Of a stretch of 64,000 bases of DNA, positions 24,825-60,416 are shown in pieces. This DNA comes from Anaerolinea thermolimosa. Lineage in GTDB: Bacteria > Chloroflexota > Anaerolineae > Anaerolineales > Anaerolineaceae. A program made the translations under genes and the position numbers. The DNA lies in the NCBI RefSeq assembly GCF_001050195.2, contig NZ_DF967965.1:1505150-1569149 (forward strand), read 5' to 3'. Below the pieces are notes generated by a model, which was not told the origin of the DNA, did no database searches, and saw only the letters and a list, made by a program, of their open reading frames with translations. Numbering within the stretch: position 1 is the stretch's first letter; each line of letters starts with the position of its first letter.

Positions 24825-25205
24825 CTACCCACAATCACAAAAATCGGGGTCCACCGGCCTCTCCAGGCTTTTTACTCCAGAGTTGTAAAGCCGTCCACAG
24901 ACCTCAAACATTCCAAAAGGGGTAGAAACAAAAGGTATGCCCTCTTGATTAGCCAGATTGATCGTTTCGGCGGGCGGGGTCTTTCCCCGAACCAGAATAA
25001 CCGCGGCCACTTCCGCCATCTGCGCCGTCCGAATCACCTGCGGATTGCACAGGCCTGTCACCAATACTGCCTCAGGTTGGATTGCCGCTAATACATCGGA
25101 CATTAAATCTGCAGCAAATGCTCCCTTAACTTCTCGGTTCAGGTTGCTTTGTGGGGTCAACAAAACCCCGTTTACAAGGTGAATCAATTCATGGATGTTC
25201 ATCAT
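24825..25205 (-). CDS. DRTGG-type small regulatory domain protein (first copy)
   Basis: A 126-aa paralogue of the protein at 23465: IHELIHLVNGVLLTPQSNLNREVKGAFAADLMSDVLAAI, then AVILVRGKTPPAETINLANQEGIPFVSTP. It has a C-terminal tail ending DFCDCG, not found in the paralogue, which may bind metal. It is the first gene of the regulatory run; two adjacent ATG codons (25205, 25202) are possible starts. A 127-bp mobile element sits 50 bp upstream, so its promoter may lie in or beyond that element. Confidence 0.75.
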   Translation of the reverse strand: MMNIHELIHLVNGVLLTPQSNLNREVKGAFAADLMSDVLAAIQPEAVLVTGLCNPQVIRTAQMAEVAAVILVRGKTPPAETINLANQEGIPFVSTPFGMFEVCGRLYNSGVKSLERPVDPDFCDCG

Positions 25206-25247
25206 TCCTTGCCGCTTGCCAGAAAATCTTATTACAGGATCATATAG

Positions 25248-25390
25248 TTTTTATGGTGTTTGTCCCATATCTGGTTGGTTTTTGATTGCTTGCCACATAT
25301 GGTGATAAAAAGTTGTAAATCAGGCAGATTTGCCCCCATATGTGGGGTTTCAAAAGTCGCCCACCATTTTTAGGACAGACACTTTTTATG
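25248..25390 (+). mobile_element. MITE-like element, copy 1, with 8-bp target duplication
   Basis: The element is 25256-25382 (127 bp). It begins GTGTTTGTCCCA and ends TAGGACAGACAC, an imperfect 12-bp terminal inverted repeat. The direct repeat TTTTTATG flanks it exactly (25248-25255 and 25383-25390). It is too short to code for a transposase. An internal inverted pair, CCACATATGG (25293-25302) and CCATATGTGG (25336-25345), could form a hairpin. A copy differing at three positions lies inverted at 60283-60409. The 323-bp space 25206-25528 between the DRTGG gene and hisS otherwise holds only a possible hisS -10 box (TAAAAT, 25500-25505). Confidence 0.88.
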
Positions 25391-25528
25391 ATCATCATTT
25401 TACCGCAAGAAAATGAACCTCGGGGTCATTCAGAACTATGTAATCCAATATTAAGATGCCCTCTAAAAATCAACGCCTCAGCCAGAGAACGAGATGTGTT
25501 AAAATACCTCGGGAATGGAGCGTTTATT

Positions 25529-26809
25529 ATGAAAAATGTCATTCAACCCGTAAAAGGTACTCGCGATTTTTATCCCGAACTCATGGCCTTACGGAACTGG
25601 CTCTATGGGAAAATCCGTGTGGTGTCAGAACGTTTTGGATACCAGGAATACGAGGGGCCATTCATCGAAAAAATAGAACTGTATGCGGCGAAATCTGGCG
25701 ATGAGTTAGTAAATCAACAATCTTTCGTTTTTCAGGATCGTGGGGGTGATCCAATTACCCTTCGCCCCGAATTAACCCCCACCCTGGCCCGCATGGTGGC
25801 TCAACGACAGAATGAACTGACTTTTCCATTACGATGGTGGTCATTTGGCCCCTTTTGGCGTTATGAACGCCCCCAGAAAGGCCGAACCAGAGAGTTTTTC
25901 CAGTGGAACATCGATTTAATCGGCGTTAACACACCTGAAGCGGATGCAGAATTACTCCAGATTTGTGCCAATTTTTTCCGGGAGGTTGGGCTCGGTCCCC
26001 AAAAAGTGCGCCTGTTGGTTAACAGTCGTCGTTTGATGGATCAACAACTTGCAAAACTTGGATTGGAAGGTGATCTCAGACGGGCGGCTTTTCGTTTAAT
26101 TGATCGCATGGATAAACTCCAACCCTCGGAATGGAACGACTACGCACTTAGCCAGGGGCTAAGCATAGCGCAGCTGGAAGGAATTAAAAACCTGCTGTCA
26201 AACGACGAGGGGTGGCATCAATCTGAAGAGTTATGCCATGTCTTTGAACTCATCCAGCTGACAGGGTTGGCAGATTATATTCGTTATGACCCTCATATCA
26301 TTCGGGGATTAGATTACTACACTGGTATTGTCTTCGAAGCCAAAGATTTAGATGGTGGTCGCTCCATTTTAGGGGGTGGGCATTACGATAACCTTGTAGC
26401 AGCAGTCGGGGGGAACCCGCTTCCGGGTGTGGGATTTGCTATGGGTGATGTGATGATCAGTCTTGTGCTCGAAAAATATGGTCTCATCCCCCCGCTTCCA
26501 CAAAACCCCGCCCAGGTGTTGGTAACCGTCTTCGATGAAAGCCGCCTTGCCTCATCATTTGCTCTGGCGATGCAACTCCGGAATGCAGGGCTTAACACTG
26601 TTTTTTATCCCGAGGCTGCTAAATTACCCAAACAATTCAAATATGCTGACCGAATTGGCGTTCGCTTTGTAGTAGTTTCAGGCCCAGATGAGGAAGCTGC
26701 AGGCGTTATAACCCTCAAAGACCTTCTTTACCGAACTCAAGAGACACTGACCGTACCCTCAGCCGTTGAGAAAATTCGCGCATTGCTTGCGGTTGGTCAG
26801 GGATTGTGA
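25529..26809 (+). CDS. hisS: Histidyl-tRNA synthetase
   Basis: Class II aminoacyl-tRNA synthetase, 426 aa. Motif 1 region PVKGTRDFYPE, motif 2 LRPELTPTLARM and WRYERPQKGRTREFFQWNID, histidine-specific YDPHIIRGLDYYTGIVFEA and LGGGHYDNLV are all present, followed by the C-terminal anticodon-binding domain (VLVTVFDESR to the end). I chose the ATG at 25529, with GGAG 9 bp ahead; an upstream in-frame stretch starts inside the mobile element and has no family similarity. The gene for tRNA-His follows 23 bp after the stop. Confidence 0.96.
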   Translation: MKNVIQPVKGTRDFYPELMALRNWLYGKIRVVSERFGYQEYEGPFIEKIELYAAKSGDELVNQQSFVFQDRGGDPITLRPELTPTLARMVAQRQNELTFPLRWWSFGPFWRYERPQKGRTREFFQWNIDLIGVNTPEADAELLQICANFFREVGLGPQKVRLLVNSRRLMDQQLAKLGLEGDLRRAAFRLIDRMDKLQPSEWNDYALSQGLSIAQLEGIKNLLSNDEGWHQSEELCHVFELIQLTGLADYIRYDPHIIRGLDYYTGIVFEAKDLDGGRSILGGGHYDNLVAAVGGNPLPGVGFAMGDVMISLVLEKYGLIPPLPQNPAQVLVTVFDESRLASSFALAMQLRNAGLNTVFYPEAAKLPKQFKYADRIGVRFVVVSGPDEEAAGVITLKDLLYRTQETLTVPSAVEKIRALLAVGQGL

Positions 26810-59497: not shown

Positions 59498-60205
59498 TCA
59501 CTCAAAAGTTTGCCTTCTGACAGATGGAGCCCTTGCCTGAAGCAAATCAGCATGCTCAAGCAAAGCCCGGTAACCCCGGTCTACTTCGCCTTGCCGGATG
59601 GCTTCAACCATCTGACGATGGTAATTCCAGACCGTCTTTAAGTAATGAATGTCTGTATAGAGAGCCAAACCAACCGCCTCATACAAATCCCAGTAAGCTT
59701 CCAGAATCCCAAAAACAAAAGGATTTTCCAGCCGTTTGAAAATAGTCAGATGAAGTTCCCGATGCTCAGGGTGTGGAATCTGGGGGGGATCGCTTGACAA
59801 TTTTTCTTCTGCCTTTTTCAGCAGACATTCCAATACCTCAAGATCATTTTCCGTTAATAAAGAGACCGCCTGATACCAGTAGGCGGCCTCGATGTGGGTT
59901 CGTAATTCAGCAAATCGGCGGAAATTTCGTTCATCCACCAGCATGGCATAATTCAAGCTATGGATGACTGCCGGCTTAAATGAATAACTTAATCGGCGAA
60001 TGCCTGTTTTCGGCTTTACCTCCACCACACCCAGGGCTCGAGCTACTTCAAGCTGCTCTCTCAAGCTCGCCAGGCTAACCCCTAATTCTCGGCTGATTAC
60101 AGAGAGTGCCGGTAATCGTTCTCCATCCGAGAAATGGGTAGCCAGATATATCAAAAAAGGAGAGAAGTAATCCGAAAAGGGTTTTTCGCCAGAATAGCTA
60201 GCCAT
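59498..60205 (-). CDS. GntR/FadR family transcriptional regulator
   Basis: A 235-aa regulator. Residues about 25-75 hold a winged helix (DGERLPALSVISRELGVSLASLREQLEVARALGVVEVKPKTG), and 100-225 an all-helical FCD effector domain (FAELRTHIEAAYWYQAVSLL, HRELHLTIFKRLENPFVFGILEAYWDLYE, YHRQMVEAIRQGEVDRGYRALLEHADLL) with metal-ligand histidines HREL and HRQM. FCD regulators sense carboxylic acids. It lies 19 bp upstream of korA on the same strand, so it probably controls its own operon in response to an organic acid. Confidence 0.9.
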   Translation of the reverse strand: MASYSGEKPFSDYFSPFLIYLATHFSDGERLPALSVISRELGVSLASLREQLEVARALGVVEVKPKTGIRRLSYSFKPAVIHSLNYAMLVDERNFRRFAELRTHIEAAYWYQAVSLLTENDLEVLECLLKKAEEKLSSDPPQIPHPEHRELHLTIFKRLENPFVFGILEAYWDLYEAVGLALYTDIHYLKTVWNYHRQMVEAIRQGEVDRGYRALLEHADLLQARAPSVRRQTFE

Positions 60206-60275
60206 ATTTAATCAGTTTAATCTGTTTAATCGTAACAATACTTTAGCACGGACAATTCATAATGTCAAGATGCAT

Positions 60276-60416
60276 TCATGATGTGTTTGTCCCAAAAATG
60301 GTGGGCGACTTTTGAAACCCCACATATGGGGGCAAATCCGCCTGATTTACAACTTTTTATCACCATATGTGGCAAGCAATCAAAAACCAACCAGATATGG
60401 GACAAACACTCATGAT
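60276..60416 (-). mobile_element. MITE-like element, copy 2 (inverted), with 7-bp target duplication
   Basis: The element is 60283-60409 (127 bp), in opposite orientation to copy 1, with only three base differences. Its ends are a perfect 12-bp terminal inverted repeat, GTGTTTGTCCCA and TGGGACAAACAC. TCATGAT flanks it directly on both sides (60276-60282 and 60410-60416). It lies in the 245-bp gap between the GntR gene (upstream of its start) and the M20 hydrolase, which otherwise holds no gene. Confidence 0.9.

Follow-up and report, generated by a model that had tools for sequence, protein, structure and literature searches.

A 127-bp MITE and its likely parental insertion sequence in Anaerolinea thermolimosa almost always insert 15 bp before predicted sigma-A-type promoters

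The element upstream of hisS and its copies

The window, that is, the whole 64,000-nucleotide stretch of Anaerolinea thermolimosa DNA analyzed here, harbors a short element between a leftward ORF (24825-25205) and hisS. Direct reading of the letters places the element at 25256-25382 on the forward strand, exactly 127 bp, starting with GTGTTTGTCCCA and finishing with TAGGACAGACAC, with a perfect 8-bp target-site duplication, TTTTTATG, on its left (25248-25255) and right (25383-25390); the exact boundaries given in the original prediction, 25248-25390 with the duplications, are confirmed. The left terminal inverted repeat (25256-25279, forward strand, GTGTTTGTCCCATATCTGGTTGGT) and the right one (25347-25382, reverse strand, GTGTCTGTCCTAAAAATGGTGGGCGACTTTTGAAAC when read inward) are identical at 10 of 12 and 17 of 24 positions and are thus imperfect. 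The predicted lack of coding capacity also holds, as the only long ORF through the element (25340-26809) is an upstream extension of the hisS frame. As described, 50 bp separate the element from the leftward ORF's start, and the element lies upstream of hisS, 146 bp before its ATG at 25529. The internal inverted pair that had been proposed to fold is present, and the element as a whole folds end to end; against dinucleotide shuffles, z is about -4.4 as RNA and -4.0 as DNA. The inverted repeats alone account for this fold.

The original prediction hinged on further copies, and the genome contains nine, eight full-length ones besides the reported copy, every one 127 bp long, 97-100% identical and located at a different site. 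Target duplications of 6-8 bp flank seven of the nine: five of 8 bp (TTTTTATG, GAAGATTT, ATTGACCC, GTCTGCTC and CCTTCCTT), one of 7 bp (ATCATGA) and one of 6 bp (AAACGA). The 7-bp duplication belongs to a second copy within the window (60283-60409, reverse strand, 97.6% identical). Counting outward from this copy's right end, a -35 box, TTGACA (60263-60268, reverse strand), starts at base 15; with a -10 box, TAAAGT (60240-60245, reverse strand), across a 17-bp spacer it forms a putative promoter, and the ORF downstream (59498-60205, reverse strand) looks GntR-like by eye. The two copies that lack duplications, L019 (C1:916342) and L020 (C1:947636), are in opposite orientation and 31 kb apart. 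One flank of L019 has a parental-type insertion sequence (IS) end about 20 bp away and the other has a short repeated motif resembling another IS end. With its opposite orientations, missing duplications and neighboring IS end, the pair suggests local rearrangement. An inversion between L019 and L020 was rejected, as exchanging their flanks by eye fails to restore the duplications.

The proposed similarity search was therefore productive in the same genome, with its nine copies, and gave no copy in 60 relatives. In addition, a pattern of both ends found none in 146 other genomes of the family, and none was found in plasmids and viral contigs. Because no copy was seen in the 60 relatives or the 146 family genomes, the spread of the element looks recent and local. 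The expectation of an empty site in a relative was borne out in part: a genome of the same genus, whose hisS is 76% identical, has the same gene order without the element, but its intergenic sequence has diverged too far to define an empty site to the base. The relatives of hisS itself place the genome studied here in Anaerolineaceae. Collectively, the near-identical copies at unrelated sites, the duplications that flank them and the presence in this genome of a same-ended IS raise the original "MITE-like" designation to MITE.

The likely parental IS and its transposase

Searching the genome with the end sequence alone revealed solitary ends, which proved to be those of a larger IS that starts and finishes with GTGTTTGTCCCAAAAACGGTTGGT and GTATCCGTCCCAAAGCCGGTGGGT. 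Four IS copies in the genome share the MITE ends (L014, L016, L017 and L111), two of them with 8-bp duplications, GGCGTCAA and CCTATTTT (L014 and L016). The middle of each longer copy consists of N, and no intact transposase is readable in this genome. Such N runs, of about 600-1600, lie in or near L014, L016, L017, L111 and L019; the run in L111 is bordered left and right by identical sequence, which shows that its length is not a true gap size. Complete elements are present in relatives, of 1215 bp (L114) and 1211 bp (L116), each with an exact 8-bp duplication, and parental-type ends with duplications were also found at L180, L181 and L136. As the search of more distant transposases for a duplication plus inverted repeat returned many chance pairs, a pair was accepted only if at least 16 of its end bases matched and its duplication was exact.

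The MITE resembles this IS in its terminal 24-36 bp, and between the ends only matches of chance length occur. The right end (25382) is closer to the C-side end of the IS, the one that lies behind the transposase gene, with 26 of 36 positions identical, compared with 19 of 36 for the other, N-side end. The left end matches the C-side end at 20 of 24 positions, and over 36 positions it matches the two IS ends at 20 and 21, allowing no clear assignment. An IS of about 1.2 kb with the same ends and 8-bp duplications is thus the likely parent of the MITE. A lone 50-bp IS end (L012, C1:420489) lies 15 bp ahead of a TTGACA/TATAAT pair that fits the consensus perfectly and precedes a LexA-like gene. 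A more distant IS with ends GAGACTGTAACAAAATTGG (L130, C6:112447; L132, C6:56196) follows the same promoter rule described below; the flanks of its two copies are identical, so part of contig C6 is duplicated.

Nine full-length transposases were collected, eight of them 40-66% identical to the first. All nine share a catalytic triad (D137, D195 and E314) and an invariant C213-x2-H216 located 18 aa after the second aspartate, D195, which is 119 aa from the glutamate. Mutator-like (p-MULT) transposases are defined by a DDE triad, a C/D-x2-H 11-19 aa after the second aspartate and 99-138 aa between that aspartate and the glutamate (PMC3942029), and the nine members show each of these features. 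The p-MULT trait of 8-9 bp duplications and a terminal C of the inverted repeat is seen in the elements too: the duplications are 8 bp and the ends finish in AC.

Among NCBIfam IS models, none accepts the transposase at its curated cut-off, and the subthreshold matches are to IS66, ISL3, ISH6 and IS6. ISH6 (p-MULT 2), itself Mutator-like, is the best model for the first member (NF041731, 62.7 bits), far below its cut-off of 240; moreover, ISH6 duplicates AANATNTT, whereas no such consensus is seen here. The ISL3, IS66 and IS6 models score 56.5, 55.8 and 41.9 bits in the member shown, reflecting similarity in the DDE domain, but these values too are below the cut-offs of 180, 180 and 125, respectively. 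The Pfam DDE_Tnp_IS66, IS240 and ISL3 models place the transposase just above the gathering threshold. The ISL3, IS66 and IS6 families also make 8-bp duplications, and we know of no promoter rule for them. The transposase was not found in plasmids by tblastn, its profile matched no PDB sequence, and its AlphaFold model (mean pLDDT 60) is too low in confidence for a fold search. The IS family, left unassigned in the original prediction, is identified by function as a Mutator-like, promoter-targeting IS, whose transposase the curated IS family models do not accept.

Position and orientation of the target promoters

Reading outward from the MITE right end, TTGACA-like and TATAAT-like boxes occur at a constant distance in most copies, and the same boxes lie beyond the C-side end of IS copies, both here and in related genomes. 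These promoters are consensus predictions. A flank was scored as qualifying if it showed at least 8 of 12 matches, a -35 start at base 14-17 and a spacer of 16-18, the window and threshold having been chosen after inspection of a first set of 30 flanks. Of the 30 C-side flanks in that set, 21 qualify, compared with 1.9 on average and at most 7 across 2000 dinucleotide shuffles; three flanks lacking duplications were kept in the set (L017, L117 and the visibly replaced L019). For a later set, insertions came from a search across the order, together with a few previously unscored loci; their ends were located while ignoring the flank, and the criteria were left unchanged. Here 12 of 15 C-side flanks qualify. 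N-side flanks qualify in 2 of 20 cases in the first set and in none of eight in the later one (2 of 28 in total). The chance level is 5% for random intergenic points in the window. Given the relatedness of the genomes and a possible common history of some flanks, binomial figures serve as a guide only.

The IS/MITE family thus inserts in one orientation, with the MITE right end, equivalent to the IS C-side end, almost always 15 bp before a predicted sigma-A-type -35 box. Eight MITE copies have a right flank without visible replacement, and seven of them qualify, the sole exception being the reported copy, which has no promoter-like pair at either end (5 of 12 and 4 of 12 matches). L136 has a clean duplication yet scores only 6 of 12, and L016 and L115 carry a promoter-like pair on the N side too. 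The target promoter of L014 serves tRNA-Pro. No rule was seen at the expected register in the GGCACTGTT-ended elements (L144, L150 and L152) or in the lineage of L162, L194 and L196.

The flanks also show which box sets the distance. Base 16 is the start of the -35 box in 22 of the 28 strong matches (at least 9 of 12), and as the spacer goes from 16 to 17 to 18 the -35 box mostly stays at 16 while the -10 box shifts to 38, 39 and 40. It is therefore the -35 side, and not the -10 side, from which the distance is set, which points to sigma region 4 or the alpha CTD as the candidate site of contact and docking.

Proposed mechanism, alternatives and known systems

We consider it very probable that the element is a nonautonomous MITE, moved in trans by the same-ended IS of about 1.2 kb and inserted in an oriented fashion upstream of promoters, presumably via docking on the polymerase. 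The IS transposase would mobilize the MITE, and the transpososome would dock on RNA polymerase holoenzyme at a promoter, or on one of its parts close to the -35 box (the alpha CTD or sigma region 4), such that strand transfer would take place at about -50 relative to the transcription start. The IRR-type end would be turned towards the promoter because recognition would differ between the two ends. Insertion of this kind spares genes and core promoters, replacing only the DNA upstream of -50. The copy before hisS may represent a less specific insertion, or its promoter may have decayed.

It is possible, if distinctly less probable, that the transposase itself reads promoter DNA, a -35-like box and an AT-rich -10 box, without the polymerase. 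Such reading fits a distance fixed to the -35 box, for which a sequence motif alone would suffice. However, both hexamers are conserved though degenerate, with the -10 box kept where the -35 box is poor (L016, L114 and L118), and it is simpler to suppose that the reader the cell already has is used than that a second one exists for the two boxes.

Another proposal concerns the reported copy, in which the MITE would provide an outward promoter half and thereby affect expression of the operon of the leftward ORF (24825-25205). Direct reading across the left junction (25238-25262) indeed places a GGGACA, a possible weak -35 box, in the left MITE end, 17 bp ahead of a TATGAT oriented towards that ORF. 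GGGACA agrees with the -35 box at only four of six positions, however, and this is a single case, which makes such a hybrid promoter doubtful.

Random insertion followed by selection, which would retain copies at harmless or useful sites upstream of promoters, is even less probable. ORFs of at least 100 aa cover about 95% of the window, so most random insertions would be harmful, and a position at -50 leaves the gene and core promoter whole. Yet selection fails to explain a one-base register and a single orientation across many genomes: other registers in the same flanks give mostly 0-5 matches, compared with 21 at the fixed register, and of points placed 60-200 bp upstream of ORFs only 4% conform to the rule. 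Lastly, a fixed regulatory RNA, attenuator or REP/BOX-type repeat would accord with the end-to-end fold (z about -4.4), but the fold follows from the inverted repeats, and the exact boundaries, copies with different duplications at scattered unrelated sites, the same-ended IS and the absence of any Rfam match at the reported locus leave this reading practically no room.

Promoter-directed insertion by a Mutator-like transposase has close counterparts, such transposition in bacteria having been reported previously for two transposase groups. TnGBS and ISLre2 elements (p-MULT 3) insert in one orientation, 15-17 bp upstream of the -35 box of sigma-A promoters (Guerillot et al. 2014, PMC3942029), and a figure of 15-16 bp was repeated for streptococcal elements (PMC4701971). 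Part of ISKra4 (p-MULT 4) shows a similar promoter signal, on both sides of the elements, and contact with the polymerase initiation complex was proposed (PMC3942029). The present family works like ISLre2/TnGBS in its insertion rule, sharing the right end at the promoter, the spacing, the size class of the duplications (8-9 bp) and the Mutator-like DDE domain, which does not amount to membership. The hosts in that study are mostly Firmicutes and it mentions no MITE (PMC3942029), and the ISLre2 model matches none of our nine transposases at E 0.01; it is also silent in the A. thermolimosa genome, in a search in which the controls were silent too. ISKra4 matches are widespread in this Chloroflexota class, and some ISKra4 members insert upstream of sigma-A promoters. 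Nevertheless, there is no NCBIfam ISKra4 match among the nine members and none in the A. thermolimosa genome, profile comparison (hhalign) with four ISKra4 transposases of the same class gives a probability of 7.7%, and ISKra4 promoters lie on both sides.

The MITE itself resembles Correia, MITEAba12 and other prokaryotic MITEs in being short and noncoding, with inverted repeats, duplications and presumed mobilization in trans. Where a review of such elements treats promoters, these lie inside the MITEs (PMC10969869), whereas here the promoter is in the target at a fixed distance. The targeting mode is thus already known. For this transposase lineage and for a rule-following MITE, no description was found in the literature searched, in which no earlier promoter-targeting MITE turned up. 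The same 15-bp spacing in a Chloroflexota lineage suggests either an old trait shared by Mutator-like elements or repeated invention. By targeting DNA upstream of promoters, an element family can spread without cutting genes, and a 127-bp MITE with this behavior would offer a very small in vitro substrate and a natural tool to place DNA upstream of active promoters. We suggest, tentatively and with more doubt than confidence, that this is a further separate transposase lineage that finds promoters via RNA polymerase and passes the rule to its MITEs; as the copies sit mostly in the same phase at about -50, they could act as portable upstream elements altering the output of adjoining promoters.

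The hisS locus of the same-genus genome shows a feature of its own. The His-codon ORF described here is absent from the window and from 15 other hisS upstream regions checked, and its region gave no credible match in Rfam. Upstream of hisS in that genome (L133:1337-1390), a short ORF, MKRVPGLLHHHAHLHRS, with five His codons follows a TTGACA/TATGAT promoter and precedes a hairpin with a T run, an arrangement resembling a histidine attenuator leader for hisS. L025, which is probably from the same genome, contains this ORF as well.
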